A stretch of 30,900 nt of DNA from a virus, in the IMG/VR virus record IMGVR_UViG_3300030390_001081, positions 36,251 through 67,150 of that record; one strand, given 5' to 3'. A program made the translations under genes and the position numbers. Shown here one piece after another: positions 3,059-30,900 of the stretch; the stretch's first letter is position 1; the number at the start of each line of letters is the position of its first letter. The notes under the pieces are model-generated. The model was not told where the DNA came from and searched no databases. It worked only from the letters and a program-made list of their open reading frames with translations.

Positions 3059-6000
3059 TGGCAAAAAAACAACCTAAAGCAAAAATAAAACAAAGCCAAC
3101 CTTCTGGTTTTTTTAAAGGTATGGTGTCTGATGTTGATCCTAGATTACAACCTAAGTCAACATATAGAGATGCGAGAAATATAAAACTTATAAATACAAG
3201 TGGTAATTCGCTTACTATAGAAAATGAGGATGGTAATAAATTAGCTGTCGATTTAGCTGCATTATATCCTAATTATGAATATGACCCAACGGTTATAGAA
3301 TATTTTAGTGAATCGAAAGATGGTACTACTGATAGTCCTTTAGATTTTGCTGGTAATATAGTAGGTCATTATTCATTTAAAAATCAATTACTACTTATTA
3401 TATGTGGTATATTTAGTGATTCTGTTGACGATAAAGATTTTAGAACACAATTTTTATTATTAGAATTTACTCCCAAAGGTAATTTTCGTACATCTACTGA
3501 TTTACGAGTTTGTTATGATAATGTTGGTGAGGTTCCAAATTTAAAAATGGATCCATTAGTAAGTTGTTCTGTAGCTGGTATAGTAGAAAATGAATGCATA
3601 ACAAGAGTATATTGGACAGACAATATGAACTCTTTAAGGTCTTTTTCTTTAAAGGCAGATTTACCTAATTTGTTTATTAATGAATTAGATGTAAAACCAC
3701 AATCAAGATTTTCTCAACCTATTTTAGACGCACAAATATCAGGTGGTTTACTATCTGGATGTTATTCATATTTTTATAAATATGTTACAGATGAAGGTTC
3801 TGTTTCTGGTGTATCTCCATTAAGTAACGTGTATTATGTTTCTGAACATGCAGGTAGTTATATAGGAACATATGGTTCTGCTTCAGGTGTAATTACTGGA
3901 ACTGGTTTACAAATAAAAATAAATGATGTAGATCAAAGATATGATTTTGCAGAAGTTTATGCTGTTTATTGGCAAGATTTAGAAATAGCTCCTACAGTTC
4001 ATGAAGTAGGAACTATACCTATAAGTGGTACAGGAGCAGGAGAAGATATAACATGTTTTCATTCAGTAACAGGACCTCCAGTATCTAATGGTTTAGCAGA
4101 AGTTTTAATACCTTCTAATACTTGGGATGTATGTAAAGATATTGCAATAAAAGATAATATATTATTTGCTGCTAATTTAAAAAGTATAACAAATATAGTA
4201 TCAGCTAAAGAATGGAATGTAAAAGTCCGTAGGTCTTCTTTGTTAAATTTTAGTAATGCAGATCCAGATTATGGTGTATTAACTACTGCTGATCCTTTAA
4301 TAAAAGATTATTATCATGCTTCAGGAAGTTATAATCCTGATAATGTTATAGAACTATTCACTGATGGTTCTTATGAAAAAATGACTTTTAATCATACTTA
4401 TAGGGCGCATAGAGGTGCACATAGGTATATGCCTTTAATGACTGACGGTCCTGTATTGGGAGCGATGTCATATGGATTTCAAGCTACAGGTACAAGTGGT
4501 AACGAGTTAGGTGGATGTAGAGTTTCTTTTAATTTATCAAAAAAATCATCAGACACTACAGGTCCACAAGGTAGAACAACAATTATGTCTTATGGTAGTG
4601 GTAGTGGTGGTTATGGAGATTATTTCACAGAAGCATATACAGATGTAAATCAAGCCAATGGTGATGGATTATATAAAGCAGTATTAAGTAATGTAGGTGG
4701 CGAAAAAGATCCTGGCATTGTAGGTAATAATAGAGGGTATCAAAGAGGAGAAACATATAGATTTGGTGTATTAGTATATGATAAAGCTGGTAATCCAGGT
4801 AATGTATTATATATAGGAGATATACAAATGCCATATCATCACGATACATATTGGCAAAGAGATTTTGGTAATTATGGTGTAGGTTCTTGGGACACGAACG
4901 AAAGAGATGCTTTATATAAAATAGATAGTTACGCAAAAGACTTTAGAGTATCTATAGATGCATCTATGCCAGTTCCAGGTGTTTCAAATAAATATTGTAA
5001 GCCAGATGAAGATATAAATACTGGAAGTTCAAGTCATGGGCCTAAAACTAATTTTTGGTCAACGCCTGGACAATCTCATATTTGGAATTTTGATTTAGGT
5101 TTAATCTTTGAATTTAAAATACCAGATCATGTTAGAGAAAAAATATCTGGGTTTCAAGTAGTAAGAGCACAAAGGAGAGATTCAGATAGAAGTATATTAC
5201 AGCAAGGAGTATTAAAACAAACTGTTTATTATGGAAAAACATTAGCTCAAGATGGATCTAGTACTTCATCTACTGATGAATCAAGTCATGACAGTCCTTT
5301 TTATAGTATGGTACAATTACCATATTCTATTGCTTCAAATCAATCTACAGCATTAGGAGGTCCTACAGCAGTAACAGGTACTGCAACAGGAACAACAAAC
5401 GGAGGTAATATGTTTTGGCCTGAATATGATTTATTTGTGGGAGGTCATTTAGGATTAAATTATTACACTAATGCTTTGTCTCCTGGAGGTAATGCTCAAA
5501 ATTATGCTAGTATTGATGATAATGCACCATTGCAATTACTTGTAATGAAAGATGCAGATGGTTATTTTACTCAAGGCGGTAGTGACAGATTAACTAATTC
5601 AAGATTTTTTGGACAAGATCAATTTGGAATATATACTAACGGAGCTTCAACTTATTCTACAAGACACATGTCTTTAACTTGTTGGGTAATGTATTCTCCT
5701 GATTCAGCATTTGGATTACGTCCTTATAGATTTACTTCACAAGACCATATAAGCATAGTTTCTACAATGAAATTAAGAGATAAAGTAAGAACACAAATTA
5801 GTTCTGAAATATTAGGTAACAATAATTATGGTGGTGTAAGTGGTGCAGTTCGTACATATTTTATGAGTAGTTATAATACTCCAGAAGCTAATGTAGATCA
5901 AGCTAATGAAATTTATCAATATGGTGGTTGGATGGCAACAAATGATAGAGGGGACTATTATAGTAGCATTAAAAGACAAGATAATGCAGAAAGAGCTTCT

Positions 6001-14710: not shown

Positions 14711-17700
14711 ATGGGATTTGATTTAAATGAGTTCTTTCAATCACAGGTTAAAGGAGCTAGAGGTGGTTATCAACAAGCACAAGATGATTTAAAACAAGAT
14801 GTAGATAATTATGATGTAGGTGGGCCTATGGATGCTAATCCTGGAGAAGATTTTTCTATATCGCAAGGAGATATATCTGCATCTGCATTACAGCAAAGAA
14901 CATCATTTAGAACTACGGGTAGAGGTTCTGGATTTCAAACTCCAGAAATGATTATACCTGAAGATCCTAATGTGCAAGGAGCAATAGATCAAGATAGATT
15001 TTTAAAACAATCTATGACAAGAACTGAAGACATTGCAAGATCTGAAGTTTCTAGATTACAAAGATCACTTATAGCAGGTAGTGGACAAGTAGTAAGTATG
15101 GTAGGGGATATATTTAATTTTCTACATGCAATAACTCCTGATACAGGAGAAACATTTGAACCATTTGAAACAGTAGGAACATTCTTAACAAAGCATGGTG
15201 ATAAAACTATGAATGAGTATAAGAATACTTATATACCAGAAGAATTAGAAACGATAGGTGTAAATGATATGTTCAATCCTACTTTTTGGACAGGTGATGT
15301 AGCTCAACAAGTACCAAATTTTTTATCTATGCTTACTCCTGGTGTACTAGGTACTAAGCTTGCAAGCAAAGGATTATTAAAATATTTACCAAAATATACA
15401 AAAGCATCGAGAGGATTTTTAGATGATACTGTCGGTGTTGTAACAAGAACAAAAGGTGGTCTTGGTAGTTTAACTCCTATTATTAATGTAGGAATAGAGG
15501 GTGCAGATGATTTTATATTATCTAGATCAGGTAAGGCTTTATCTGCTTTTCTTGGTGGTGGTATTGGTACAACTATGGTAGATGGAGCTACAATAGCAGG
15601 ACAAACATATAGACAGGGATTACAAGTAGGTTTAACAGAAGAGGAGTCTTCTGTAGCTGCCGCTAATGTATTTGGAAATAATTTTGCATGGGCAGGTATA
15701 AATGGTATATCATGGGGATTAACTTTTGGTGGAGTTAGATTAGCTCCTGTCAGAGGATTAGTCAATAAAATGCCTAAGAATACTTTTGGTAAAACAGTAT
15801 CTGGTATATTGCAAAGTAGAATTACCTCTGGAATAAGTAAAGCAGGATTAGAAGCTGTAGAGGAATCATTCCAAGAAACTTATCAAGATTGGGTGCAAAA
15901 AAGACAATTAGCAAAAGCTCAGGGAATACCATTTGAATATGATGGAGATTATTTATACCTTAGTTCAGGTTATGCTGAATATTATAATAGTCCTGAAAAC
16001 AATAGAACAAAATATGTAGCTGGTGCTACAGGTATATTAGGTGGAGGATTTTCATCTATTATAAATGACACTGCAAAGCAACAGCTTGCTATGGACAGAC
16101 AACGTGAGATTTTAGAACAAAATCTTGATTTGTTAAATGATAATAGTAGAACATCTAGATTAGCAGTTGTAGACAACGTAGTAAAACATTCTGTAGAATC
16201 TAGAGAAACAGGAGAGTTAACAGCTTATTTACAGCAACAATTAGACAAGGGTATTATAGATCAAAAATTATTTGATTTTTATACTAACGTAATAAACTCA
16301 TATGAAGAGTTATATAATAGAATACCAGAATATATAGAAGAAACAGAAGGGTTTGGTAAAGAACAGTATTTTTCTAATTTAACTTTAGTAGAAAGAAATA
16401 AGAATGCATTAAAATATAGTGAGGAAGAATTACAATCTTGGAAAGATGCTAATAAAGATTCAGAAGGAACTAAAGGTTACAATGAAGTATTAGCACAAAA
16501 AGAAGGTGAGCTTGCAGAACTTGCAAATGAACTTGAACAAGCTAGCGCAAAAGCTCGTGAAATAAACTTAGGTATAGAGCAAGAAATACTTACTGAAAAT
16601 AGAAAGTTTAAAAAAGGTGTTTCTGTTACACCTGAAGGTAAGTTAACAAGAGGTGAAGGTAAAAAAGTTGGAGGAAAATTTGCACCTGAAAGTAAGTTAG
16701 ATCAAGAACAAAAAGAAGATATACTTACAAAAGAAGCAGAAAAAAAACAAGCAAAAGAAGAGTCGAAAGAAAGCGAAAAAACAGAAGAACAAACAGAGGG
16801 TGAACCATCTGTAGTTAAAAGAGTAGTAGACAAAGCAGGAGATATAGCTCGTAAAACAGGTGAAAGATTAGGAATAGTAAGTGCAAAAGAAGAAACACCT
16901 GAAACAACTCCTACAGAAGAAACAACACCAGAAGTAGCTGCAGAATCAAAAACAGAAACAAAACAACAAGCTTCAGAAGATGTGTCTGTATCTAAAGTTG
17001 CATCTAAAATTAAAACAGGAACTTTATCTCCAGAGAATGTTAGAACACAAGATAAAACTGATGTTGACGCTGCAGTTAAAAGTGTTGCGCAAAAATTAGA
17101 TAGTGGTGTTACTGCAGATAAACTTACTGAAAATGAAAAAACTATTGCAATTGAATTTGCACAAGAGGTAAGACAAGCGCGTAAAAAAAAAGTAGAAACT
17201 AAGACTAAGAGTAAGACAAAAACTGAAACTAGTCAAAAGTCTAAACCTAAACCAAGAGATAAAAAAGGTAAAAAGTCTAATTATAAATCAGCTAATCAAG
17301 CTGTAACTAAAAACCTCAACTTTAGATTAAGAAATGCTAGAATAGCAAACACAATGTTTATACAAGATAAACTTGGAATTGCTGTTGGTGTAATAGACTC
17401 TTCATACAATCACTTTGGTACTACTCCCGCATACGAAGTAGCTGGAGCAATATTTGTAGATCCAAATAAACTATATCAAGAATTATTTGTACACGAATAT
17501 ACAGGACACATTTATTTTAGAGCAAATCAAGATAGTCCACTTATAAAAAAGTTTATACAGGAATATGCTAATTCTAACGAATATGCTGCTATGAAAGGTA
17601 GGTATCCAGAATTAGAAATGTTTACCTATAATGGACAAGAACTTACATTGTCAGAAATATCACAAGACTTACACGAAAGGTCTTTTAATAAAGATGATAA

Positions 17701-20700
17701 TTTTTATTATGCAGAGTTAGAAGCAGACTTACAAGCTCTTATAGATATAGTTGATGAAATAGCAGCTAATGAAACTGCAGGTGCTTATGAAGGTACAGGA
17801 GTTACAAAACAAATAGAAGACTATGCTGAGTTAAAAAGAATGTTACAAGAAAATAAACTTGTAAAAGAACTTAAGCCACAGCAACAGATGGCACTAATGG
17901 AAGAAGGTTGGGCTACATATATTTCTGATCCTGACAATCCTAATACAAGAGAAGACGCTAGAAAAATATTTGATGGATTAATGGAGAATCCAGAAGAAAA
18001 CAAAAAACGTAAATCAAGAATAAAACGTTTTTGGAATATTGTAAGTAAACAAGGTAAGTCTATAGAAAAAGAAGCTACTACAACACTACAAAGTAAAGAA
18101 GGATTAGCTGGACTATCTTTAGATGAAATTAAAAGCAGACTTACTTCTGATATGCTAAGAATGACTCCAGAAGAGGTAAGACAAGGTAGAGCTACTAGTT
18201 CTAGAAGAATGAACTACAAGCCTAATAGAAGTCTTACAGATACATCTGTATTTGAAAATGAGTTAGCAACTAATGTATATAACGAGCTTGTTAACAATCC
18301 TAAACTAATAAAAGAATTTGCAGAAAGATATAAAGACAACCCATCTGATTTATTACAAGACGAAGAGTTTATAAATGTAATAGTAGAAAGTATGACTCAG
18401 TTGTCATATCAATATGGTGTGCATAACAGGTTTGCTGAAGCTATAATATACAATACTAAAAAATTATCTAAACTTAATAGAGAGGTAATTGATTTACAAA
18501 AGAAAATAGATTCTGCTACTAATTTAGATAGTAGAAGAGAGTTTGTAAAACAAGCTAAATTTAAAAGAGCACAATTAGTAAAAGCAGCAGCTAAAATACA
18601 ACCTAAAGATATAGATACAACAACTATACAAATGGGTGACAATAGTATGAGTGTAAGAAACTTTGCACAAGCTATTGCATTTAAAGTAATGAATCGTAGA
18701 GGTATTAACTCTGCATTTAATAAATTTAATGCTCAAGTATCTAAACTTTCTAAAGATGCTACTTTATCAAAAATAGAAGAAACTTTTAATAATGCATTAA
18801 AAAAAGAAGGTTTATCTGATTTACAAATAGAAGGACTTGCTAGCGAACAATTGCGTGTAGTTATAGACGAATATGAAAAAGTATTTGGTTTAAACTATCA
18901 TGGATTAGATGCTATTACTGATATAAATGAATTAGTAGACTATAGTGATAATATACTTAATATCTACAATAAAGATAAAGATGAGTTGTTATCTGGTTTA
19001 TCATCATTGATGATGGACTTTACTAGAGTTTATATGCAAACTGAAGAGGCGCAGTCTAAAAAGAAAACATCTAGACAACCTTATGTAAAACAAAAAGCTT
19101 TGGGTGCTATGGCAATCATATTGCAAACAGCACAACAACACAGGGGTGACTTGCAAGGATTTATAGGATCTATAAGGTCTAATAAGAATAGCTCTGTAAG
19201 AGCATTTTTAAAGTATTTAGAAGATAGATTACAAGTAGAAGGTGTAAAGTATAAGAAACCACTACAGTTACTTAGAACTAAAGAGAGATCTGGAGTTATG
19301 AAAAGTTTAGCAGATCACTTGTTAACATCTGTGTGGATTAACTTTAGCAACAAAACTAACGAACAAATATTTAATACAGTACAAAGAGGTAATGATTCTA
19401 CACAAACAAATGATTTAGATTTATTTAATGAAGAAACAACTGCAAGTGAAGAAAGAGCTTTAGTTGCAAGAGTAATAAAAGAAGGTGGCTTTATATTTAA
19501 CCAGGGTAAAGATGGAGCAAGAAGACGTAGAGATGTAGCGTTTACACAAAAAATGATAGACGCTATACGTGGACTTAATGAAGATAAGTCAACTACATTT
19601 CAAGATGCCGAGTCTATACTTATGGAAATGTTTGATGTATATGGAGGTAATTATTTCTTTTGGAATACATTAGAGCAAACTGGTGTAGTAGATGGTAAAA
19701 ACAGAATATCATTAAATGATTGGTTTAAAAAGAATGAAAAGAAAATAATTAAAGCTTCTAAAGATCCTAAGATAGCTGTAGATGTCTTTGCTCCTGTATT
19801 GCAACAAGCAGCATTAAACAGTAGAGTATTCTATTACTTTACTATGATAAAGAATGCAGAGGGTAATCCATCAAATACTATGAATAGTCGTAGTTTTATT
19901 ATTAATCAAAATGAAAGACTAAATGAGTTTTTTACAAGAAAGGATAATGAAACAGATCAAGAATATAATGATAGAGTTTTTGATAGAGCGAAAGCATTAA
20001 GAGATATTTATGGCGATAATGCATATCTACCTTTTGAATTAAAAACAATAGATGGTGTATTTACCGTACAGCCAAAACAAAATGTATTAAAATTTAGAGG
20101 CGGTCTTATATCTCAGTTAAACAATAAAGGTTTGAATTATGTTAGACTTACACCACAAGAACTTATGGTTAGTGAGATGACTGACTTTATAAGCGCTTTA
20201 GGTAGACGTAGACAAACAGACTCTGATGGTAATATAGTTGATACTACATATATGCAGCAAGTAGGTGTATTTGCTGAAAAAACAAGAATGTACTATGTAG
20301 AAACAAAGTTGTTAAAAGACACACAAATTAAAGAAGAAATAGATTTAAGACTGTCTGAATACGTAGGACAAACATATCAAGATGGTAAATTAATATTACC
20401 ATTTATAAAATCTAAAGGTAAAAAAGCTGTTATAGATGAAGTATATGTAAATAAACAAGTAAGGTTATTAGGTAATCATATTAATAATAATTTACATTTA
20501 TATAAAGACAATGTAGATTTTCAAAATTTATTTGATGGCAATAAATTAAATGCACAAGGTAAAAAAGCTTTGCGTACATACATTCTTAATTATGGAATAA
20601 ATAGATTCCAGGCACAAAGAATGTTTATTGGGGATCATAAACAATTTAAAAACGAAACTGATTATGTTAAGCGTAGTGCAGGTGCTATAGCTAGACAAAT

Positions 20701-23700
20701 GCCCACTGATATAAATCAAAAGGTAGATCTACTAATATTGAAGGATCAAGAATTAGATGGAGATAGCGAAATGGATGCGCAAGGATATATGTTGCAAGAA
20801 GATGCAGACATAGTAGGAAACCAGTATGGTTTAAACTTTATGCGTAATGATTTTGAAACTGCTAGACATTTTAAATATGTTTATTACGGACAAGATTTAA
20901 GAGAGGATGCATTAGTTAATAATGTATTTGGTCCACATTCTGCAATGTACGCTAAAGCAAATGTAATGTCTATTACTAAAGATATGGAAAATAAAAATCC
21001 ATACTTAGCTAGCGTAGCAGAATTATTACGTGCTCGTAAAAAAGATTTAACTAATAGAAAAGAAAACTATCAAGTAGTAGCTTATCAAGAATCAGCTATT
21101 AAAACAGCTCCTTTTAAGTTAGAAGACTACACTATTAACTTAGACAATACAACTAGTTCTGGTGTTAATGCATTATATGAAATGCAGATAAAAGAACAAT
21201 ACGATAACTTGTACTCTAACGAAGAAGGCTATGTTGGATTAGATGGACAAAACTTTGGTGTACAACTTATATTAGATAAAGAAAAGTTTACATCACCAAT
21301 GGCCGCACAGTCATACTCACAACACCTTACTAATACTACGCCTGAAACTGAATTACTTGCACAAGGTGCACACCGTGCAATTGCAAGAGCTATGCAGTAT
21401 CAGTTGGAGGAATCAGGAGTAAAGAAGTATTATAATGTAGATGAATATACAGAGTCAAAACAAATATCTCTTAACAAGTCTTTGTTAGACAAGATAAGTT
21501 CTAACTGGGCTGGTAATCCTACTGCAAACTTAAGTGAATATGCAAGTCCATTTTTTCCTAAGTTAAATGTATCACGTAACTCTATATTAAATAAATTAAT
21601 TGTTGAGGTAGGTACAAAGGTAACAACACCTGGTACAATTGCATTTCAAGTAACTCCATATGGATATAACCTAAAATCATTTACAACTCTTGGAGCATTA
21701 AAAGAATCTGCTGCAGATCAAAATGAAAGAAATACAATAGACAAGTTAATTAATAAGTATGATAGTAACCTTACAGTTTCTGAAGTTATACTACCATATA
21801 ACATGCAAAAAGATTATAATGTAGGTGATATTATATTGGGTAGTAGAATACCTTCACACGCAAAATCTACGCAACCTGTATTAGTTGTAAAAGACTTTTT
21901 TGATAGAGATGCTGGTAGTATAATTGCTGTAGGTACTAAAGTATCTAAAGCTATGGGATCTGACCTTGATGGTGATGCTATTTTTGTAAATGGTAGGTAT
22001 GTTAAAAAGAATTTAAAATTATCTGAAACTGCATACAATAGAGCTTTTGATAATATAGTAAGTTTAAACGGACATCCTGCACATCAAGCAGAAGCATCTG
22101 AATCTATTGAATTTGAGGATACGGCAAAAGATGCTTTAAAGTTTTCTGAAGAAACATTAGGAAGAAAGCAAGATAGTTTTGCAGAAGAGTCTAGTCAAAT
22201 GATGCCTATAGGTATGTTAAATGCATTTAATGAAAATGTACCTGCTGGTGGTATGATTGGTATAGCAGCTACTATGCAAAGAGATTTAAATTATTTTGCA
22301 CATCACAATGCTGAGTTAGACTTTAGCGTAAGAATAAATGGTGTTGAAAGAAATAAAATAACAGATGATGGAGGTTTAACTTATTTACAAACAGCAAAAG
22401 TTTTAAACATTATACTTGATAATCCTAAGTATCAATATGCAAGAAAGTTAGGGTTTACATATGAAACAATTAAAACTGCAATGCTGTTGTTAAGAATGGG
22501 TTATAGTTTTAATGAGGTAGCTACAATACTTAATAGTCAGGGTGCATTAAAGTATGGTAAGTACGCATCAGAGAGAACTGTTATTAATGTAAATGATATG
22601 TCATACTATACGCCTGGACAAAAGGCTATGGTAGAATACTATGAAAGCGAAAACAATAATAAAGAAATAAATAGCTCTATAGAGTTCTTATCAAGAAAAC
22701 AATCGCCATCATTATATGTTAGACAAAACATTGATCCTCAGTTAAAAGTAGATAAAGGTGGTGTAATTAATCTTGACTTTAGTGATGTACAAAGCAACGA
22801 GTTTAATATGCAAGTAGTTAAGCTGCTTGATAATTTAAATAAAGTTGGTACAGAAGTGTTTAATGCTGGTAGAATTATTGGTGCATATGGTTTAACTATG
22901 CAGAATGGATTTCAAGTAGATAAACTTATATCAGACTTTAATAATGTAGGTTCTAAAGATTCTAGATTTATAGAAGGCCCTATAAATAAATTAAAAGCTG
23001 ATCCTATTATACAGCATAATATTAAAGTTCTTAATAAAATAAAAGAATTAGATCAAGAAATTAATACACAATATAGTACAGAAGCTGTAGCCGTACAAAA
23101 AGAAATAAATAAAATTGTTAGCTCTGACCAGCAAAACATATTTGAAAGTCATCCTATAGCTGTAAGACAATATCAATTATTTAGAATGCAACAAGACCTA
23201 TCTGTCTTACAAGATATGCCATCTATTGATGCATTGTTTGCTCAGATTGAACAAGTTAAACTAGAAAACGATAAACTGCCATATGAATTACAAAACAGAT
23301 TTATTGCTGATGGTATAATTTTAAACCCTGAAACAAAGTCTGTGTCTTTAAATAGTAGATTTGTTGATTCTAATATACCAGAGTCTGATTTATTTGTATT
23401 ACAAAGACACTTTGATTTATTAGATCAAAATAGAGGCATAGGAGCATTTGATGTTGCACCAGGTACACCAAGAATAGAAGTAGAAAGAGTAGAAAATGAA
23501 GATGGTTATATTCCTAAATATGCTGACTTTACTACTGATTTAAGAAAGACATTTATACAAATGGATTTTTTACAAAATGGCTGGATAGGTTCATCTTCTA
23601 CCTCTGTATTGTGGAGTCCTAATACACATGGAGTTGATTTTAAAATAAACCAAGAACTAAATAACCTTATACTTGATAACAAGCGTACAGTTACTAATGA

Positions 23701-26620
23701 AGAAGCTAAAAGTATTGCACTAAACTTTTTAAAAGATTATTCTTTTAATGCTCCTTCTGTTACTATGAGAGAAAGCGATATATCAGAAGATGGAACAGTA
23801 TATGTTATAGCTGGTTTCCCACCGCCTGTTGTAGATAAATTACAAAAAGAAAATACACAACACGTTGTAAAGTCTTGGGATAACACAGATAAAAAATACA
23901 GAACTTTTGAATATGTAGATGGTAAGTATTATTTAATTGGTGAGTCTAAGTTTAATCCTAAAACACAAGAACAGCATAATAGAAATAATAAAACTAAAAC
24001 ATTTAAACAAGTTACTAGAAAAGCAGTTGATAGAACTTTCTTTGCTAAAAGATCTAATAAAGGTAAATACAAAGGTGCTAACGATGTATCTGACACTATA
24101 ACTAATAGAGCTGAACAATCTGGTATACCTACTAAAGCATTATCTAAAGATGCTTACTTTCAAATTAAAGGTTTGTCTTCTCGTAACAGAACTATTTCTG
24201 CTGGTACTGAACAGTATTATAATAAAATGTATGAGAACTATGTAGATCAACATCAAGATTTATATGATACATTGTATTTACCAAATATTAAAACTAACAA
24301 ATACAAAGAAATGTCTGAAGGTGAATTAGTTAGCATTTCTGTTGACCTAATTAATTTTGATAAAGTATTATATAATCAATATATAGAATACATTGGCGTA
24401 GAGCTTACTGAAAGAATGGAGAAAGAGCAGATAGCAAACATTGCTAAAGTAGCTAACAAAAATAATATATCTCTTGTAGGTAAAGATTTGGGCGCTTGGG
24501 AATCTTGGCTTATATCTAATAATTTAAAACAAACTAATCCTGAAGTACAGAACATTATAAGAAAACTTCAAAATGATTACATGAAGTTTGTAAAAGATTA
24601 TAGACGTGAAGCTATGATAATATCTAAATTAGAAAAACAGATTAAAGATAATAGACTATCTAATCTTACTAACTCACAAATGGTTGGACTGTTTCTAAAA
24701 GGAAAGCTTAATGATTATATATATAAAAATTTATATAAAACAAAAGTAAACGCAGATGGTAGAGAGTTTATTGTACTTAGATCTGAAGAAGAAATAAAAG
24801 GTTTACCTCAATATGAAATTGAGTTTTATTTTAAGTTTAAAGATATGGTGCAAAAATATAGTCCTGGTATTGATGAATCATCTATACCTTACAAGTCTAT
24901 GTCTGGTATACCTTCATTGGCTAGACACGGTTTATTAGGATTATACAAATCACAAATAGGTAGTACTTCTGATTTAAATAATATAAAAGTATTAGGAGAG
25001 TTGCCAGATGGAACTACAGAGATAAGAACATTTGCTGAGTTTAAAACATTGTATGAAGCTAAAACAAAAGATTCTTTATTGAATAAAGCTAAAAATATTG
25101 TAAGATTAGAAAAAGTTCGTAAGCGTGCTGTAGCAGCATCTAAAAGAGGAATGAATGATGATAAGACTCCTATAATTTTAAATAAAGCAGAGAGAGCTAC
25201 AATGACTGATAGCGATATATTCTACAATATGATTGACAATAAAAATGTTAGTGTGTCTGAACTTGGTTCTAAAGACCTGGGCGATATACTTAAATCATAT
25301 GTTCATAGTAATATGTTTAAACATGGATCACAAAGATTTAGACAAGATTATTTAAATACAGTTAATGTTATTACAGATAAAAATGGTAAAAAGTATTTTG
25401 AAGAAACTTATCAACAATGGGCAGTTAGAAACGAGAAAGATGATTTCTTAGGGATGCAGTCTTACTTACCATTAATTGATGGAGCTATAGCACTAAACAA
25501 GCTTAAGGGTAATGACAACATGGTTGATTACTTACAGGAAGTTTGGAAAGATAATATTATAGGTGGTAAAAAACAAAAAGCATTTAAAGGTCCATTTGAT
25601 TGGGCTGTAAATAAATTAGTAGATTTAACTACACTATCATATATTGGTTTAGATTCTTCTGTTGTTATTGGTAATGCTGCCATGGGTAAGTATACATCTT
25701 TACGTGCTAAAGGTGGTAAAGAATTTATAAGTGGTGAGAAAAGATTTTGGCAAGGTTTTCTTGGTGGACAAGAATCTGTAAAAGATAAACTTACTCGTGC
25801 TAAAAAGTTAGAGTTTGGTTCTACAAATAAAACCTCAGCTATGTTGAATGAATTATTTAAGTTTGAATACTATCAGTATGAGGATATATCTGCAGTACAC
25901 AAACAAAATCCTTTGTTTAGACTTGCTTTATGGCCAATGGAACAATCTGAAAAATGGATACAAGGTGTAATGTTCTTTGGACAAATGTCACAAAAACAAT
26001 GGAACTCGTATGATGCTGATGCTGATGGTAATTTATTAGTAAAAGCTGTAGATGGTAAGTTTTATAAATACAGTGATTTAGAATTAAGTGATGTTAGTGA
26101 AGATGCATTAAGTATAGATCGTATTAATCAGATAGTATTTGATGTAAAAAAACAACAAGGATTTGGTTACTCGCCATTAGATCAACGTAGATTATCTATG
26201 TACTCCTGGGGTAGAGCTTTAGGACAATTTAAAAAATATTTCTTTTCATTAAGTAGAGAAAGATTTGGATCTGAAAATATAGACATGTATGGTAATGCGG
26301 ACGTAGGTACTTATCGTGCAGCATTTGAATATACTAAAGATATGTATCAAGGTAAAAAAGATTTTAATGATTTTAAAAAGTTACCTAAATACAAAAAAGA
26401 TGCAATAATAAGATATGTAAGAGGTGTGGCTGTTACGTTTGCAGCAATGTTAGCATATGGATTATCATCTGAAGATGATGATAGTATTATATCAAATCAG
26501 ATTAATAAAACTGCACACGCAAGAATACAAGAACAAAATATTTTCTTTAATCCAGAAAGATTAAAATTTATGGCTACACCGCCAGCAGTGAATTTTGTTT
26601 CGGATAGATTAGGATATTAA
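14711..26620 (+). CDS. Giant virion protein with two-barrel RNA polymerase and zincin-like motifs, 3969 aa
   Basis: One uninterrupted frame fills 39% of the window. Residues ~1-460 contain Gly/Ala-rich hydrophobic segments (~278-345) like those of ejected phage proteins. About 560-860 is a Lys/Glu-rich coiled-coil and low-complexity linker with a basic end (KTKSKTKTE). HEYTGH lies at 928-933 (zincin-like). Candidate RNA polymerase landmarks follow: DAQGYM at 2022, a SAIK motif with Lys2131, GSRIP followed by SHAKST, and DLDGD at 2418-2422. DxDGD is the metal-binding active-site signature of multisubunit and crAss-like/YonO two-barrel polymerases. The best-studied relative, Cellulophaga phage phi14:2 gp66, is about 2180 aa, so this protein carries about 1800 extra residues. 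The last ~400 residues are helical with a hydrophobic stretch (~3904-3918). Inferred role: injected with the DNA and transcribes early genes. Polymerase assignment is strong on motif and context; domain borders are estimates. Confidence 0.8.
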   Translation: MGFDLNEFFQSQVKGARGGYQQAQDDLKQDVDNYDVGGPMDANPGEDFSISQGDISASALQQRTSFRTTGRGSGFQTPEMIIPEDPNVQGAIDQDRFLKQSMTRTEDIARSEVSRLQRSLIAGSGQVVSMVGDIFNFLHAITPDTGETFEPFETVGTFLTKHGDKTMNEYKNTYIPEELETIGVNDMFNPTFWTGDVAQQVPNFLSMLTPGVLGTKLASKGLLKYLPKYTKASRGFLDDTVGVVTRTKGGLGSLTPIINVGIEGADDFILSRSGKALSAFLGGGIGTTMVDGATIAGQTYRQGLQVGLTEEESSVAAANVFGNNFAWAGINGISWGLTFGGVRLAPVRGLVNKMPKNTFGKTVSGILQSRITSGISKAGLEAVEESFQETYQDWVQKRQLAKAQGIPFEYDGDYLYLSSGYAEYYNSPENNRTKYVAGATGILGGGFSSIINDTAKQQLAMDRQREILEQNLDLLNDNSRTSRLAVVDNVVKHSVESRETGELTAYLQQQLDKGIIDQKLFDFYTNVINSYEELYNRIPEYIEETEGFGKEQYFSNLTLVERNKNALKYSEEELQSWKDANKDSEGTKGYNEVLAQKEGELAELANELEQASAKAREINLGIEQEILTENRKFKKGVSVTPEGKLTRGEGKKVGGKFAPESKLDQEQKEDILTKEAEKKQAKEESKESEKTEEQTEGEPSVVKRVVDKAGDIARKTGERLGIVSAKEETPETTPTEETTPEVAAESKTETKQQASEDVSVSKVASKIKTGTLSPENVRTQDKTDVDAAVKSVAQKLDSGVTADKLTENEKTIAIEFAQEVRQARKKKVETKTKSKTKTETSQKSKPKPRDKKGKKSNYKSANQAVTKNLNFRLRNARIANTMFIQDKLGIAVGVIDSSYNHFGTTPAYEVAGAIFVDPNKLYQELFVHEYTGHIYFRANQDSPLIKKFIQEYANSNEYAAMKGRYPELEMFTYNGQELTLSEISQDLHERSFNKDDNFYYAELEADLQALIDIVDEIAANETAGAYEGTGVTKQIEDYAELKRMLQENKLVKELKPQQQMALMEEGWATYISDPDNPNTREDARKIFDGLMENPEENKKRKSRIKRFWNIVSKQGKSIEKEATTTLQSKEGLAGLSLDEIKSRLTSDMLRMTPEEVRQGRATSSRRMNYKPNRSLTDTSVFENELATNVYNELVNNPKLIKEFAERYKDNPSDLLQDEEFINVIVESMTQLSYQYGVHNRFAEAIIYNTKKLSKLNREVIDLQKKIDSATNLDSRREFVKQAKFKRAQLVKAAAKIQPKDIDTTTIQMGDNSMSVRNFAQAIAFKVMNRRGINSAFNKFNAQVSKLSKDATLSKIEETFNNALKKEGLSDLQIEGLASEQLRVVIDEYEKVFGLNYHGLDAITDINELVDYSDNILNIYNKDKDELLSGLSSLMMDFTRVYMQTEEAQSKKKTSRQPYVKQKALGAMAIILQTAQQHRGDLQGFIGSIRSNKNSSVRAFLKYLEDRLQVEGVKYKKPLQLLRTKERSGVMKSLADHLLTSVWINFSNKTNEQIFNTVQRGNDSTQTNDLDLFNEETTASEERALVARVIKEGGFIFNQGKDGARRRRDVAFTQKMIDAIRGLNEDKSTTFQDAESILMEMFDVYGGNYFFWNTLEQTGVVDGKNRISLNDWFKKNEKKIIKASKDPKIAVDVFAPVLQQAALNSRVFYYFTMIKNAEGNPSNTMNSRSFIINQNERLNEFFTRKDNETDQEYNDRVFDRAKALRDIYGDNAYLPFELKTIDGVFTVQPKQNVLKFRGGLISQLNNKGLNYVRLTPQELMVSEMTDFISALGRRRQTDSDGNIVDTTYMQQVGVFAEKTRMYYVETKLLKDTQIKEEIDLRLSEYVGQTYQDGKLILPFIKSKGKKAVIDEVYVNKQVRLLGNHINNNLHLYKDNVDFQNLFDGNKLNAQGKKALRTYILNYGINRFQAQRMFIGDHKQFKNETDYVKRSAGAIARQMPTDINQKVDLLILKDQELDGDSEMDAQGYMLQEDADIVGNQYGLNFMRNDFETARHFKYVYYGQDLREDALVNNVFGPHSAMYAKANVMSITKDMENKNPYLASVAELLRARKKDLTNRKENYQVVAYQESAIKTAPFKLEDYTINLDNTTSSGVNALYEMQIKEQYDNLYSNEEGYVGLDGQNFGVQLILDKEKFTSPMAAQSYSQHLTNTTPETELLAQGAHRAIARAMQYQLEESGVKKYYNVDEYTESKQISLNKSLLDKISSNWAGNPTANLSEYASPFFPKLNVSRNSILNKLIVEVGTKVTTPGTIAFQVTPYGYNLKSFTTLGALKESAADQNERNTIDKLINKYDSNLTVSEVILPYNMQKDYNVGDIILGSRIPSHAKSTQPVLVVKDFFDRDAGSIIAVGTKVSKAMGSDLDGDAIFVNGRYVKKNLKLSETAYNRAFDNIVSLNGHPAHQAEASESIEFEDTAKDALKFSEETLGRKQDSFAEESSQMMPIGMLNAFNENVPAGGMIGIAATMQRDLNYFAHHNAELDFSVRINGVERNKITDDGGLTYLQTAKVLNIILDNPKYQYARKLGFTYETIKTAMLLLRMGYSFNEVATILNSQGALKYGKYASERTVINVNDMSYYTPGQKAMVEYYESENNNKEINSSIEFLSRKQSPSLYVRQNIDPQLKVDKGGVINLDFSDVQSNEFNMQVVKLLDNLNKVGTEVFNAGRIIGAYGLTMQNGFQVDKLISDFNNVGSKDSRFIEGPINKLKADPIIQHNIKVLNKIKELDQEINTQYSTEAVAVQKEINKIVSSDQQNIFESHPIAVRQYQLFRMQQDLSVLQDMPSIDALFAQIEQVKLENDKLPYELQNRFIADGIILNPETKSVSLNSRFVDSNIPESDLFVLQRHFDLLDQNRGIGAFDVAPGTPRIEVERVENEDGYIPKYADFTTDLRKTFIQMDFLQNGWIGSSSTSVLWSPNTHGVDFKINQELNNLILDNKRTVTNEEAKSIALNFLKDYSFNAPSVTMRESDISEDGTVYVIAGFPPPVVDKLQKENTQHVVKSWDNTDKKYRTFEYVDGKYYLIGESKFNPKTQEQHNRNNKTKTFKQVTRKAVDRTFFAKRSNKGKYKGANDVSDTITNRAEQSGIPTKALSKDAYFQIKGLSSRNRTISAGTEQYYNKMYENYVDQHQDLYDTLYLPNIKTNKYKEMSEGELVSISVDLINFDKVLYNQYIEYIGVELTERMEKEQIANIAKVANKNNISLVGKDLGAWESWLISNNLKQTNPEVQNIIRKLQNDYMKFVKDYRREAMIISKLEKQIKDNRLSNLTNSQMVGLFLKGKLNDYIYKNLYKTKVNADGREFIVLRSEEEIKGLPQYEIEFYFKFKDMVQKYSPGIDESSIPYKSMSGIPSLARHGLLGLYKSQIGSTSDLNNIKVLGELPDGTTEIRTFAEFKTLYEAKTKDSLLNKAKNIVRLEKVRKRAVAASKRGMNDDKTPIILNKAERATMTDSDIFYNMIDNKNVSVSELGSKDLGDILKSYVHSNMFKHGSQRFRQDYLNTVNVITDKNGKKYFEETYQQWAVRNEKDDFLGMQSYLPLIDGAIALNKLKGNDNMVDYLQEVWKDNIIGGKKQKAFKGPFDWAVNKLVDLTTLSYIGLDSSVVIGNAAMGKYTSLRAKGGKEFISGEKRFWQGFLGGQESVKDKLTRAKKLEFGSTNKTSAMLNELFKFEYYQYEDISAVHKQNPLFRLALWPMEQSEKWIQGVMFFGQMSQKQWNSYDADADGNLLVKAVDGKFYKYSDLELSDVSEDALSIDRINQIVFDVKKQQGFGYSPLDQRRLSMYSWGRALGQFKKYFFSLSRERFGSENIDMYGNADVGTYRAAFEYTKDMYQGKKDFNDFKKLPKYKKDAIIRYVRGVAVTFAAMLAYGLSSEDDDSIISNQINKTAHARIQEQNIFFNPERLKFMATPPAVNFVSDRLGY
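17492..17509 (+). other. HEXXGH zincin-like motif in the giant protein
   Basis: Codons 928-933 encode HEYTGH in the context LFVHEYTGHIYF, a helix of the kind that carries zinc ligands. The six-residue HEXXGH form differs from the usual HEXXH and is known from peptidase family M49. Candidate downstream acidic ligands are YYAELEADL (about 75 residues later) and ALMEEGWATYI. Proteolytic activity is an inference. Confidence 0.5.
21962..21976 (+). other. DLDGD catalytic motif of a two-barrel RNA polymerase
   Basis: Codons 2418-2422 read D-L-D-G-D, preceded by VSKAMGS and followed by AIFVNG. About 45 residues before it is the phrase GSRIPSHAKST. The order 'R-x-P-x-H...S...V-x-x-G-x-D-x-D-G-D' parallels the NRAPTLH...NADFDGD region of bacterial beta-prime subunits and the corresponding region of crAss-like virion polymerases. 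The three Asp residues would hold the catalytic Mg2+. Confidence 0.8.
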
Positions 26621-26646: not shown

Positions 26647-27012
26647 ATGGCAAATACAAATGACGTAAATGGTGCAGCACTAGGTAAATATGGTGTAGCT
26701 TATATGGATACAACCGATTTATTTACACCACCAAATGGTATGGTGATTGTAGCTATACAGTTTCTTGCACAAAATACTTTAAATACTTTAACGTCTTTTG
26801 ATACTGATTCTGGTACTAGAAGGTATGCGAATACTGCTAATGCAGCACATGCAGCAGAGGATAATTTAGAAGGAAAAAATGGTGCGCAGTTAGACAATAC
26901 TGCTATATTTCCAGTAGGAACAATTATTTATGGTAGATGGAGTACTGTAAAATTACAAACTGCAGATTCTAATGGAGGTATATTAATTTATTTATCACCA
27001 AAAGGTAGTTAG
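26647..27012 (+). CDS. Small virion decoration/fibre protein, paralogue A
   Basis: This 121-residue beta-rich protein has no signal peptide. It starts MANTNDVNGAALGKYG, has a hydrophobic strand (GMVIVAIQFLAQ, 31-42) and ends with FPVGTIIYGRW (88-98), a VKL strand and IYLSP. It aligns along its whole length with the protein at 27444-27812: the same N-terminus ([AT]-LG-[KQ]-YG), the same central strand and the same 'FPxGxxIxGRWxxVxL...Y' ending. The 'FPxGxTIYGRW' ending is one I know from small surface or fibre-type proteins of marine phages, so a trimeric decoration role is likely. It is the first gene behind the second promoter element. Confidence 0.6.
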   Translation: MANTNDVNGAALGKYGVAYMDTTDLFTPPNGMVIVAIQFLAQNTLNTLTSFDTDSGTRRYANTANAAHAAEDNLEGKNGAQLDNTAIFPVGTIIYGRWSTVKLQTADSNGGILIYLSPKGS

Positions 27013-27013
27013 A

Positions 27014-27436
27014 ATGTCAATTAAAAAAGATTATACAAATAGTACTATAAGAAACGATTACAAAAGTAGAGTTAAAAGTCAAACTCTTACTAAAATTGTT
27101 GTAGAAAATGAAGAAAAAAGAAGTAGAGCGGAACTATTAGATATGGTTGAAGAATTATTTGAAGGACAAAAAAAACAATTAGACTTTAGAGATCTACGAG
27201 CTATGATTCATATGCTTGTAAAATCTGTAGAAAATAATACAGATGATGATACAGGAGCTACAGCTGGACAAGTAACAGCTATCAACGCTAATACAGCTAA
27301 AATAACTCAAGGTTTAAATACAGCAAACTCAAGTATGACATTTGATATAATTGAGAGTAGAGGTGCATATAGTATAAGAATTAATGTCGTTTGCGATGAC
27401 GGCCAAACAAGAACATTTACAACAAGTTTAAGATAA
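27014..27436 (+). CDS. Fibre-like structural protein with coiled-coil/shaft motif
   Basis: This protein has 140 residues. A basic N-terminal ~30 residues is followed by an amphipathic helix (AELLDMVEELFEGQ and LRAMIHMLVKSV, ~39-72). An acidic linker and GQVTAINANTAKITQGL (85-101) come next. The 'A-I-x-A-N-T-A-K' heptad is common where trimeric phage fibres change from coiled coil to shaft. The C-terminal 35 residues form predicted beta-strands (SIRINVVCDDGQTRTFTTSL). It starts one base after the previous stop and lies between two paralogous small surface proteins. Inferred role: a short fibre or fibre-attachment protein. It has no enzymatic motif. Confidence 0.55.
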   Translation: MSIKKDYTNSTIRNDYKSRVKSQTLTKIVVENEEKRSRAELLDMVEELFEGQKKQLDFRDLRAMIHMLVKSVENNTDDDTGATAGQVTAINANTAKITQGLNTANSSMTFDIIESRGAYSIRINVVCDDGQTRTFTTSLR

Positions 27437-27443
27437 AAAAATT

Positions 27444-27812
27444 ATGGCAAATAATACAGATATATATAATGCAACGCTTGGTCAATATGGATCATCGTTT
27501 ATTACAGGTGACGGTGGAACTGTCGATTTAAATGGTACTTCATCAACAATGTTTGTAATAGCAATTACAATGTTAGCTGATACAACATTTCAGAACTTAC
27601 AAACTTATAAAGGTGAGATAAAATCTATAAGTACAGTTACAGCTGAAAATGATCATGATGCAGAATTTGGTGCAGCATCAAATGCTACTGATATTACTAC
27701 ATCACACACTTTTCCAAAAGGTGTAACAATATTTGGAAGATGGGATTTTGTAGAACTTAATAGTGGAACTTGTGTTTGTTATTTTGCACCACAACCATTT
27801 AATGTGTCGTAA
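27444..27812 (+). CDS. Small virion decoration/fibre protein, paralogue B
   Basis: This protein has 122 residues and is paralogous to the protein at 26647-27012. It starts MANNTDIYNATLGQYG, has a central strand MFVIAITMLAD and ends FPKGVTIFGRW (90-100) with VELNSGTCVCYF. The middle region (~55-88) differs most and would be the exposed, variable part. It has two Cys residues near the C-terminus (CVCY) that paralogue A lacks. It begins 7 nt after the previous stop behind an AAAAATT leader, and its stop overlaps the next ATG (TAATGA). Inferred role: surface decoration or a receptor-contacting knob; both paralogues may form a mixed assembly. Confidence 0.6.
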   Translation: MANNTDIYNATLGQYGSSFITGDGGTVDLNGTSSTMFVIAITMLADTTFQNLQTYKGEIKSISTVTAENDHDAEFGAASNATDITTSHTFPKGVTIFGRWDFVELNSGTCVCYFAPQPFNVS

Positions 27813-28855
27813 TGATAAAAACAATACTATATATTTGTTTAGCATTTTTTTGTGCATTATCAAGTATAACTGTTGATGCGCAAATAAAAAACCTATATAA
27901 ATTTTCTACATTTTATATTGCTGCAAATGGAGGTACTTCTTTGTCAGATCGTAACATATATAATGTACAAGACATACTTACTACTGCTACAGAAGAAACT
28001 CCTTATGATTATTCTTTAACTGCAGGCATTAGAAAAATTAAAAGATTTCAATACGAACCTACCAGTCCTTTTAAGGATGGTACAGAAACTACATATAGTG
28101 ATGCAGCTACTATAGGTTTATCTCCGTTTGAATTTTTATTTGAAATAGACTACAGAAGACAAGAAGGTATAGAATACATAAATCAAAATCATTTTTTACG
28201 TTATGTAAAACCAATATGGTTAGCTAAAGCAGAATACATTCTTGATGGTTTTGCTGATGTTGAATATTATGAAACAACACAAAGATTAAGATTAAGAGGT
28301 AATAAAAAACTATCATTTAATTTAGGAGCTATACAAAGAATATCTGAACCCTATGGATATGATCCACTAGAAGAATGGATATTATCTAATGGTAACTTAC
28401 ATTATACATACTTAGCAATACAAGAAGGATATACTATAGATGTATATGATAATCAATATATAGATCCACAAGGTAACATTGTAGCAACAAGTTCAGCTGT
28501 GTGGGATGAGGTAGTTATACCACAAGTTTTATCAGATTATGTAGAAAGTAAAAGAGATGAACTTACAAACCAATGGGTACACTCTATTGTTTTGGGTTTT
28601 GATTATTATACATACAAAAAAAATGCATGGTTACATGTATGGGGTAATTTTATACCTTATCATTACAATGATGGAGGTGAATACTCTTATCATAACTTTA
28701 ATGATGGAGAACAATGGTACGACTATTCTGGTGGTTTAATATTTGGTTTGAAAATTAACAAACATTTAGGTACTTTTGTAGAAGGAAAATATCATAAGTA
28801 TTGGAATAGAGAATGGTATGATTTTAAATTTGGAATAAATTATATAATATTTTAA
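27812..28855 (+). CDS. Exported protein, probable outer-membrane beta-barrel
   Basis: This 347-residue protein has a clear signal peptide: MIK, then a hydrophobic core LYICLAFFCALSS, with cleavage predicted after VDA23 so that the mature protein begins with Gln24, as is common in Bacteroidota. The mature part is full of alternating aromatic strands, such as TAGIRKIKRFQYEP, LRLRGNKKLSFNLGA, SIVLGFDYYTYKK and GLIFGLKINKHLGTFVEGKY. It ends in KFGINYIIF with a terminal Phe, the classic C-terminal signal for outer-membrane barrels. Polar loops between strands are long. Start overlaps the previous stop. Phage-encoded, it may alter the host surface (receptor masking or superinfection exclusion) or have been co-opted into the virion. 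The first is my preferred inference. Enzyme family not recognised. Confidence 0.65.
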   Translation: MIKTILYICLAFFCALSSITVDAQIKNLYKFSTFYIAANGGTSLSDRNIYNVQDILTTATEETPYDYSLTAGIRKIKRFQYEPTSPFKDGTETTYSDAATIGLSPFEFLFEIDYRRQEGIEYINQNHFLRYVKPIWLAKAEYILDGFADVEYYETTQRLRLRGNKKLSFNLGAIQRISEPYGYDPLEEWILSNGNLHYTYLAIQEGYTIDVYDNQYIDPQGNIVATSSAVWDEVVIPQVLSDYVESKRDELTNQWVHSIVLGFDYYTYKKNAWLHVWGNFIPYHYNDGGEYSYHNFNDGEQWYDYSGGLIFGLKINKHLGTFVEGKYHKYWNREWYDFKFGINYIIF

Positions 28856-28856
28856 A

Positions 28857-29132
28857 ATGGCAAAAGAACTTAACGAAGAAACAGGGTTCAATATAAGTGT
28901 AAAAACATTAATAGGCATAGGTTTTGCTATGGCAACTATAATTAGTATGTGGTTTGTTTTACAAGCTGATATAGCAGAAGCTAAAGAACTTCCTAAGCCA
29001 GAAATTTCTAAGATGGAATTTAATATGAAAGATGTTAATATACGTCAATCTATTAAGAACACAGAGAAAAATGTGGAAAAGTTAGAAGAGCGAATGATTC
29101 GCATGGAGGACAAAATTGATGCATTAAGATAA
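28857..29132 (+). CDS. Small one-TM coiled-coil protein (holin- or spanin-like candidate)
   Basis: This 91-residue protein has a polar N-terminus of about 16 residues, one transmembrane helix at ~18-36 (TLIGIGFAMATIISMWFVLQ) and a charged C-terminal half. From ~58 that half forms a strong heptad coiled coil (VEKLEERMIRMEDKIDALR). There is no cleavable signal. The N-terminal anchor plus periplasmic coiled coil fits small phage membrane proteins such as inner-membrane spanins or single-TM holins. It lies one base after the outer-membrane barrel gene and overlaps the start of an exported thioredoxin-fold gene, so a lysis or envelope role is plausible. No lysozyme gene is adjacent, which weakens the lysis idea. 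Confidence 0.55.
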   Translation: MAKELNEETGFNISVKTLIGIGFAMATIISMWFVLQADIAEAKELPKPEISKMEFNMKDVNIRQSIKNTEKNVEKLEERMIRMEDKIDALR

Positions 29133-29485
29133 TGAAAAAGATAGCAGAATGGAAGATATTTGGAATGTACTTGTTAGTATTATTTTTATTGTTAGCCTCA
29201 CATACTGCTTTCTCTCAGGTAAAAGTGATACACTTTAATGCTGATTTTAATTCAGCTAATGATGTAGCTTGGTTCGTGAAATTAAATGAATGTGATAGAC
29301 AAACGCTTTTGATAGAGCAAAATGATAATCAAATTAAATACGAAATAGCTATTGTACCAACAATAATAGTGTTTGATGACGGTAAAGAAGTAAAAAGATT
29401 TCAAGCAGACATAAGTTTTAAAATGGCTGCCACAAGAAAAGAAGTACAAGAATATATTGACGAATTAATAATAAGCAAATTTTAA
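29132..29485 (+). CDS. Exported thioredoxin-fold protein lacking the CxxC site
   Basis: This 117-residue protein has an N-terminal signal (MKK, core YLLVLFLLLAS, cleavage after TAFS28 giving mature Gln29). The mature ~89 residues follow thioredoxin order: strand KVIHFN (31-36), the active-site loop position, a helix to Cys54, strand TLLIE, KYEIAIVPTIIVFDDGKEV (69-86) with cis-Pro76, and a C-terminal helix VQEYIDELI. Aligned to F-W-A-P-W-C-G-P-C, the active-site Cys pair is Asn40 and Asn43 (NSAN), so ordinary disulfide chemistry is not possible; a lone Cys54 remains. The phrase 'VxHFNAxxN...VPTxIxFDDGxEVKRFQAxI' is one I recall from many Bacteroidota phages, so it is probably a conserved late protein acting in the periplasm or virion. 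Function unknown. Confidence 0.7.
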   Translation: MKKIAEWKIFGMYLLVLFLLLASHTAFSQVKVIHFNADFNSANDVAWFVKLNECDRQTLLIEQNDNQIKYEIAIVPTIIVFDDGKEVKRFQADISFKMAATRKEVQEYIDELIISKF

Positions 29486-29486: not shown

Positions 29487-30218
29487 ATGTTAGTTTTAAG
29501 TAATTGTATATCGCTTCCATCTATAGATTTTGTTGAAGATTTTCAACTTACTAGTGTAACAGGTTTAAAAGCTTGGTATAAATTTAATACTGGTATAACA
29601 TTAGATACAAACTCTGGAACAGAAACTGTAGTATTACAATGGGCTGATAGTAGTGGTAATACTGATAAAGATATGGATTTAACATTAGCTACTAGTTTAA
29701 CAGAAAATGTAGCAAATTACAGTTCTTCAACTGGAGGAATAGAATTTAGAACTGGTGATAAATCAATATTAAATACAGATAGCGACCAACTTAATTTAGG
29801 TGCTTTTACAATATTTGGAGTTATTGATATTGTAGAAAGTGGAGCAGCAAATGAAGCTATATTAGGTAGACTAGGTAATGATGAATTAAGATTTTATAGA
29901 GGTTCATCTGCTTCAGGTTTTAGAGCAAGAATAAATGGCGCAAATAAAGATATAAATTTAGACAGTAATTTACCTAATGACAAATTATTGTTTACGGTAA
30001 TTAGAGCAAGTGATGGTACTATTTCTGTACGTATAAATGGAACAACACAAAGCAACACCTCTTCATTAGCAATTACTAATTTATTTGATTTTTTAAGAAT
30101 TGGTAATGCTTCAACAGATAGTGATGTGTATGAAATTGCAATTTATGATAACGAAGTAAGTGCTGATAATATTACTCTTATTGAAAATAATATTAACATA
30201 AGAAACAATATAAATTAA
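29487..30218 (+). CDS. LamG/concanavalin-like carbohydrate-binding protein
   Basis: This 243-residue protein has no convincing signal peptide. After ~25 residues it reads GLKAWYKFNTGI, then VLQWADSSGN (~50-58), a standard entry strand and loop of LamG/laminin-G-like (concanavalin A-like) domains. Later come LGAFTIFGVIDIV, LGRLGNDELRFYRG, 'TVIRASDGTISVRINGT' and a final strand DSDVYEIAIYDN followed by a short helix. This matches the single-domain jelly-roll lectin fold, with the 'VYEIxIYDxxLS' ending usual for LamG proteins. In phages such domains sit on tail fibres or capsid surfaces and bind glycans. It starts 1 nt after the Trx-like gene. Inferred role: adhesion of virions to host or environmental polysaccharide. 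Confidence 0.65.
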   Translation: MLVLSNCISLPSIDFVEDFQLTSVTGLKAWYKFNTGITLDTNSGTETVVLQWADSSGNTDKDMDLTLATSLTENVANYSSSTGGIEFRTGDKSILNTDSDQLNLGAFTIFGVIDIVESGAANEAILGRLGNDELRFYRGSSASGFRARINGANKDINLDSNLPNDKLLFTVIRASDGTISVRINGTTQSNTSSLAITNLFDFLRIGNASTDSDVYEIAIYDNEVSADNITLIENNINIRNNIN

Positions 30219-30219: not shown

Positions 30220-30900
30220 GTGAATAATTTTACAAAATTTTTATACGCATTTATAATGCTATTTGTTTTTACGCTGTCTACAGCGTTTTCGCAATGTCCT
30301 AACGGAACATATGTAAACATAGTAATTAATCCTGATCAATACCCAGAAGAAACTTCATGGGCTATTATATCATTGCTAGAAGACACCATTGTTTCAGGTG
30401 GACCTTACGAAGACATAGTAGATTATCAGCCGCAAGTTATTCAGGTATGTATACCTAATGGAGAGTACTTGTTTAATATATCTGATTTATATGGTGACGG
30501 TGTTGCAGGAAGTCTATGGGGTGGACAAGATGGGTCTTACTACGTAGTTCACTGTGGTGATACTTTAGTTCAACCAGACTCCGCTAACTTTGGCTTTAGC
30601 GCTTTTCATGGTTTTGCATTAGAAGATTGTGCTCCACCACCACCTGTATTTGGTTGCATGAACAATAACTACTTAGAATTTTTACCTATAGCTACTGTAG
30701 ATACTGGTATGTGTTTTACAGAAAAAATATTTGGTTGTACTGATGTAGAATCTTTTAACTACGATAGCATAGCTAATACAGATATACTAACAGACAGCTG
30801 TACACACACGCTAGAATTAACAGATTTAGCTGGTAATGGTTGGGCTGGTTCATATCTACAAGTTTATCAAGGTTATAATTTTATAGGTGAGTTTACTTTA
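30220..30900 (+). CDS. Secreted Cys-repeat (GCTD-type) adhesin-like protein, 3' end outside the window
   Basis: The frame opens at GTG 30220 one base after the previous stop and is still open at 30900 (227 codons visible). An in-frame ATG at 30256 would cut off the basic N-region, so GTG is preferred. A signal peptide is clear: NNFTKF, core LYAFIMLFVFTLS, cleavage after TAFS24, mature Gln25-Cys26. Next comes a beta domain with DLYGDGVAGSLWGG and GSYYVVHCGD. Two Cys repeats follow: GC at 145-146 to C165, and GCTDVESFNYDS at 172-183 ending at C194. Then a second domain begins (LELTDLAGNGWAGSYLQVY). The 'GCTDxxxxNYxxxA...DxSC' repeat is widespread in large secreted, often type-IX-secreted, Bacteroidota surface proteins. 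In a phage it may be host-derived and act as an adhesin or envelope decoration. Whether a T9SS C-terminal sorting domain exists is not visible here. Confidence 0.7.
   Translation, partial: MNNFTKFLYAFIMLFVFTLSTAFSQCPNGTYVNIVINPDQYPEETSWAIISLLEDTIVSGGPYEDIVDYQPQVIQVCIPNGEYLFNISDLYGDGVAGSLWGGQDGSYYVVHCGDTLVQPDSANFGFSAFHGFALEDCAPPPPVFGCMNNNYLEFLPIATVDTGMCFTEKIFGCTDVESFNYDSIANTDILTDSCTHTLELTDLAGNGWAGSYLQVYQGYNFIGEFTL

Follow-up and report, generated by a model that had tools for sequence, protein, structure and literature searches.

The window analysed here is a stretch of 30,900 nucleotides, one strand of the IMG/VR virus record IMGVR_UViG_3300030390_001081 (positions 36,251 to 67,150). It ends inside a gene for a secreted protein of host-like appearance, which raises the question of whether this gene belongs to the phage and where its product goes. 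A sequence-only reading had proposed that the phage had captured a host adhesin module and perhaps used the type IX secretion system (T9SS) of its host. After comparing the window with viral and cellular relatives, we consider it very probable that the gene encodes a cargo of the host T9SS and is part of a four-gene phage envelope module. This reading is based on a signal peptide with Q at position +1, a beta domain with GC..C repeats, a sorting domain in the orthologues, and the fixed company of exported and membrane proteins. The features concerned are the following:

26647..27812, + strand: three small genes (121, 140 and 122 aa) between a 3969-aa gene and the module, outside the conserved module
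27812..28855, + strand: module gene 1, exported protein of ~347 aa with a C-terminal Phe, probable outer-membrane beta-barrel (barrel fold at low confidence)
28857..29132, + strand: module gene 2, 91-aa protein predicted to form a coiled coil and with a membrane segment at its N-terminus
29132..29485, + strand: module gene 3, secreted thioredoxin-like (Trx-like) protein without CxxC, from a weak fold match and co-occurrence
29487..30218, + strand: LamG/ConA-like gene without signal peptide, in the slot between the Trx-like and cargo genes (Laminin_G_3 8e-5, below the cut-off)
30220..30900, + strand: 5' part (227 codons of about 610) of module gene 4, the putative T9SS cargo, a Cys-rich secreted protein with a GTG start; full-length relatives carry PF18962/TIGR04183
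30220..30291, + strand: signal peptide, residues 1-24 of the cargo, with cleavage expected before Q25 (Bacteroidetes Q-rule)
30652..30714, + strand: GC..C unit 1 (GCMNNNYLEFLPIATVDTGMC), a looser relative of the repeat, from sequence and alignment
30733..30801, + strand: GC..C unit 2 (GCTDVESFNYDSIANTDILTDSC), the canonical repeat, from sequence and alignment

The frame at 30220-30900 was still open at the end of the window, where the source record stops as well (G000:67150). None of 2000 base shuffles of the 681 nt kept the frame open, and the alignment of the cargo across 14 viral loci gave amino acid identities of 54-85%, a coding conservation indicating that this is a real gene. The GTG start aligned with ATG in 47 loci and was also GTG in L133 and L151, the nearest two relatives, indicating that the start is real as well. 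A Sec signal peptide was called by inspection and hydropathy from the hydrophobic N-terminus and the Q at +1; the cleavage context is ..LSTAFS before the cut and QCPNG after it, with Q25 as the first residue after the signal peptide. The +1 column was invariant for Q in 13/13 aligned cargo sequences and also among the Trx-like proteins of the module, and a Q-rule for signal peptidase I sites has been described in Bacteroidetes (PMC5837995). Both DLYGDGVAGSLWGG and DLAGNGWAGSYLQV were found in the window's cargo translation. The frame had first been described as having a GTG start, a signal peptide, DLYGDGVAGSLWGG and two GC..C repeats, and this description was confirmed, with one repeat canonical and the other looser. 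Its direct coupling to the LamG gene was also borne out by the cargo start, which lies one base past the LamG stop.

We then completed the gene from related sequences. A second cargo copy lies at 2417-4225 of the source record G000 (67,150 bp); it encodes 602 aa, is 83% identical to the window copy over the shared part and ends in YPNPAKERIYFTKFVNVQVYNSRGALV...SGIYHLLIKYDNIRLQKTIIKLD. Over its final 75 bases the window matches this second copy exactly, which makes a 75-bp repeat at the contig end. The closest relative, the ungapped G410, shared 94-97% identity with most of G000:2455-46798 (~44 kb), while G000:761-2426 had its match, at 91% identity, in another phage, G413. According to these identities the apparent duplicate is probably a scaffold artefact, and the first ~2.4 kb of G000 are best explained as a scaffold chimera between two phages. 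A true duplication of the module within one genome was rejected, since 14 relatives each carry a single copy and G000:1-~2454 matches G413 while the remainder matches G410. The piece at G000:1-2454 (L019), which lies outside the window, comes from another phage and is joined inside the cargo gene. The G410 match runs through the 10-N gap of G000 at 36241, ahead of the window, indicating that the window and the middle piece of G000 are one phage. The G410 cargo has a GTG start, 610 aa and the same C-terminal half, and ends in a T9SS type A sorting domain; an early stop just beyond the window, which had been named as a possible refutation, is not what this relative shows. The window itself ends before this domain, and the orthologues together with the join at the shared 75-mer suggest that its cargo gene most likely continues into one.

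The sorting domain was assessed with PF18962 and TIGR04183, the T9SS type A profiles, at their curated cut-offs. The C-terminus of the 602-aa copy scored 29.1 bits with PF18962 (cut-off 27) and 27.4 with TIGR04183 (cut-off 23). PF18962 was detected in 13/15 records and lay above the cut-off in 10/15, and copies truncated at contig ends were among the misses; it was above the cut-off in 28/50 further records, with one match each, in frames of cargo-gene size. A profile built from these phages recovered the domain in 60 of the 61 complete genes of the close family, and a 22-bit match of L079 to this profile was discounted as spurious. The AlphaFold model of the cargo had a mean pLDDT of 44 overall and of about 80 over the last ~60 residues (about 540-600); the model of the GC-repeat region was too poor for use. 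The C-terminal model matched 8glk_D, the NucA signal in the T9SS complex (prob 1.00, TMt 0.65), as well as the RgpB CTDs 7pq4, 5ag8 and 5hfs, and the same T9SS CTD structures were found weakly in a profile search. Extending the gene through its relatives in search of a T9SS sorting domain, as the sequence-only reading had suggested, thus revealed one in almost all complete genes of the close family, which supports the proposed use of host type IX secretion.

About 30 homologues, mostly more distant, carry at their end, in place of PF18962, a stretch of about 40 residues with the pattern ITDLLGRPxxxxxNxLLFFIYDDGTVEKKIIK. This short tail (DLLGRP...LLFFIYDDGTVEKK) was found on the cargo of L127, L169, L192-L194, L209 and L215-L287 and at the cellular loci L291-L300, and it was present in 20/395 cellular Bacteroidia genomes. 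In the cellular proteins inspected the tail was C-terminal, and several of them, including a multicopper oxidase and a GH16 enzyme, had signal peptides. PorV and PorP/SprF were encoded by 10/10 genomes tested, nine of them with the short tail. No Pfam or NCBIfam name was found for the tail, and its identity as a truncated PF18962 was rejected after an hhalign comparison that was not significant. Since the HBP35 signal has been mapped to the last 22 residues of that protein (PMC11285876), a short T9SS signal is possible, and our guess is that this tail is also one. A tail family common to phage and cellular secreted proteins, without a name in the libraries searched, is thereby added here.

We next considered the company of the cargo gene. 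All four module genes were present in 70/70 evaluable viral loci when the barrel was the seed (71 counted before L079 was discounted), in 69/69 when the cargo was the seed, and in 43/44 when the Trx-like protein was the seed; these sets share loci, so that they cannot be counted as independent, and comprise up to 182 evaluable viral loci. Searches of IMG/VR confirmed 190 loci for the barrel and 261 for the Trx-like protein, and neighbouring module genes often overlapped by one base. The window's module forms one operon and recurs in 14/14 relatives, all of them viral records, so the assignment of the gene to the phage operon held. One could imagine, from the host-like protein and from the end of the window in a 75-bp repeat at the contig end, that the gene is a host gene beside the phage or that the assembly joined phage and host DNA, the latter having been named as a possible refutation. 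We regard this as extremely improbable, given the recurrence of the module in these viral records and loci, the absence of the barrel from 395 Bacteroidia genomes (a search without a positive control), and the phage-phage nature of the detected chimera, which lies outside the window. Upstream of the module, the 3969-aa gene (14711-26620) was homologous only to the large protein of G011 among the relatives compared, and a different giant protein occupied its place in G001 and G002.

The position separating the Trx-like gene from the cargo gene was variable. The slot survey showed that it was empty or held either LamG-like proteins with a short MLGLGNS-type start or small basic proteins, and the LamG relative of L017 scored 34.6 bits, above the cut-off. 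The occupants in the window, L015, L017 and L061-L200 were interchangeable; the LamG-like ones lacked a signal peptide and the basic ones started with MAFKMK. The coupling to LamG therefore stands as adjacency in the window and not as a fixed partnership, LamG being one of several occupants of this slot.

The module appears to have moved between phages. Its proteins were 40-93% identical where the terminase, portal and capsid proteins of the phages compared reached only 20-28%. Compared with G005, the module proteins were 67-93% identical, the endolysin-like protein 85% and the holin-like protein 78%, whereas the terminase was 26%, the portal 28% and the capsid 25% identical. Other relatives gave the same contrast, the lowest module identity being 41% (coiled-coil protein). 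The nearest named phages by TerL (about 30%) and MCP (about 26%) were crAss-like and Flavobacterium phages, with 28-31% (TerL) and 25-28% (MCP) to the crAss-like ones, and the TerL and MCP relatives infect Bacteroidota. Together with the Q-rule at the signal peptidase I sites, these relatives are consistent with Bacteroidota hosts. A search of 50,697 phage records found no cultured relatives of the cargo, barrel, coiled-coil or Trx-like proteins.

Genes for holin-like (g8) and DUF5675 endolysin-like (g12) proteins neighbour the module in several relatives, and they were 67-89% identical across phages with TerL 20-28% identical. This neighbourhood, and the 91-aa protein whose membrane segment and coiled coil give it a topology compatible with a spanin, would fit a module for lysis or exit. 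The coiled-coil protein would then be spanin-like at the inner membrane, with the barrel and Trx-like proteins as its partners in the outer membrane and periplasm, and the cargo would loosen or decorate the surface for virion exit. However, no match to spanin families was found, a T9SS-exported protein is not in itself required for lysis, and an endolysin was present in only 49/71 and a holin in 30/71 evaluable flanks. A putative part in envelope breakage or exit is thus the main alternative purpose, possible but doubtful. Spanin, holin and adhesin identities for the module genes were rejected, as there was no family match.

For the ~347-aa protein, the PDB matches of the model were dominated by barrels, but the model, with a pLDDT of 46, was too poor for use and no match reached E<0.001; the protein is probably an outer-membrane beta-barrel. 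Its mean column identity was 57-79%. PorV and PorP/SprF were rejected as its identity: there was no Pfam match to PF11751 or PF19572 (PorV, PorP/SprF) in 31 members, and hhalign against PorV/PorP profiles gave a probability of 4-5%, where the positive control itself reached only 15%. The Trx-like protein had a weak thioredoxin-fold match, and the CxxC active site was absent in 11 relatives. A further reading takes the module as phage-owned surface display on the host T9SS, in which the barrel would be a dedicated carrier or anchor standing in for PorV or PorP/SprF, the Trx-like and coiled-coil proteins would hold or fold the cargo in the periplasm, and the tail (full CTD or short) would be exchanged per host lineage. 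We consider this rather improbable; if true, it would mean an obligate dependence on type IX secretion late in infection.

The GC..C repeats had been taken as a hallmark of large, often T9SS-secreted surface proteins, which proved to be an over-reading. Sibling phages carry GC(T/M)D..NYN..A repeats in a large protein as well, and structural proteins of cyanophages (S-CAM3, S-H9-2) are matched by a relative rich in repeats, so the repeats alone are not diagnostic of T9SS cargo. Phage proteins of 1456-2509 aa carry them internally (L008:1625-5995, G010:31696-32298 and similar). Since some of these large phage proteins are annotated as structural, a virion role is conceivable, in which the cargo, encoded downstream of tail genes, would decorate the tail or head, and its signal peptide and CTD would be decoys or serve attachment at release. 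This role is very unlikely, because the signal peptide with Q at +1 and the full T9SS CTD are conserved across the close family, the neighbouring module proteins are exported too, and a cellular homologue has the same plan.

That homologue, of 795 aa, was found in two metagenome-assembled Bacteroidota genomes (L131/L132). Like the phage cargo, this cellular T9SS type A cargo has a signal peptide, a INPDQYPQETSW domain, a GC..C repeat and a C-terminal sorting domain. Its N-terminal domain was 31% identical to that of the phage cargo (E 2e-12), with the INPDQYPQETSW core in common, and its T9SS domain scored 49.5 and 52.7 bits (52.7 in L132). It carries one GC..C repeat, and a lysyl oxidase domain lies between the N-terminal part and the sorting domain; the phage cargo, in contrast, lacks the lysyl oxidase domain and has many more repeats. 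On inspection, the genes beside the homologue had an ordinary metabolic look, which makes a prophage unlikely. These features fit a capture of the cargo from a host in which the enzyme was lost and the repeats expanded, a direction that we infer. Of the proposed capture of a host adhesin module, the host capture thus fits the cellular homologue, whereas "adhesin" was a guess, no adhesion domain having been identified.

If the cargo is exported by the host T9SS, as we favour, it would be made late in infection with the rest of the envelope module, and host Sec and signal peptidase I would export it. Its disulfides would form in the periplasm, and the host T9SS would recognise its C-terminal domain and bring it to the cell surface, where it may stay or be released. 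The three other module proteins (barrel, Trx-like and membrane/coiled-coil) would assist the cargo or act with it at the envelope. The purpose that we propose, with somewhat less than even confidence, is late remodelling of the surface of the infected cell, which might shield it from further adsorption and keep progeny from re-adsorbing to the cell or its debris. Given the presence of the module in hundreds of contigs from uncultivated phages whose head genes diverge strongly, many phages of Bacteroidota should, while infecting, either rely on type IX secretion or manipulate it. For uncultivated viruses, the kind of sorting tail may also serve as a handle on the host lineage.

Among known systems, PorV and PorP/SprF are outer-membrane barrels serving T9SS cargo, and PorP/SprF genes lie beside type B cargo (PMC10202324). 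The probable phage barrel of ~345 aa is likewise always encoded beside a T9SS cargo, but it has no detectable sequence or profile relation to PorV or PorP/SprF, and the cargo domain is of type A, not type B. T9SS sorting domains were also noted in the crAss-BACON cluster-2 phages of Bacteroidetes (PMC6949934, Viruses 2019), and the TerL of the window phage is about 30% identical to crAss-like TerL. In the accessible part of that report, however, the T9SS ORFs are BACON proteins near head genes, with no barrel/Trx module described. Cryophage encodes T9SS cargo for which particle adhesion was suggested (PMC7468147, Nat Commun 2020); as here, the cargo has type A sorting domains and the use of the host system is presumed. 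This precedent and the host-like architecture would suit a moron-type accessory gene that alters the host outside the lytic cycle, for example in adhesion to particles. We consider this unlikely, since the Cryophage cargo genes are variable and the present module, with its conserved barrel, is near-obligate. The Cryophage cargo also consists of variable island genes (endoglucanase, GH39, PA14), whereas here a single non-enzymatic-looking Cys-rich protein belongs to a fixed four-gene module in many phages. No earlier report of this module was found in the open-access literature. Phage-encoded T9SS cargo was thus known from two reports, as scattered or variable genes; what is new, as far as we found, is its place in a near-obligate, conserved four-gene module.
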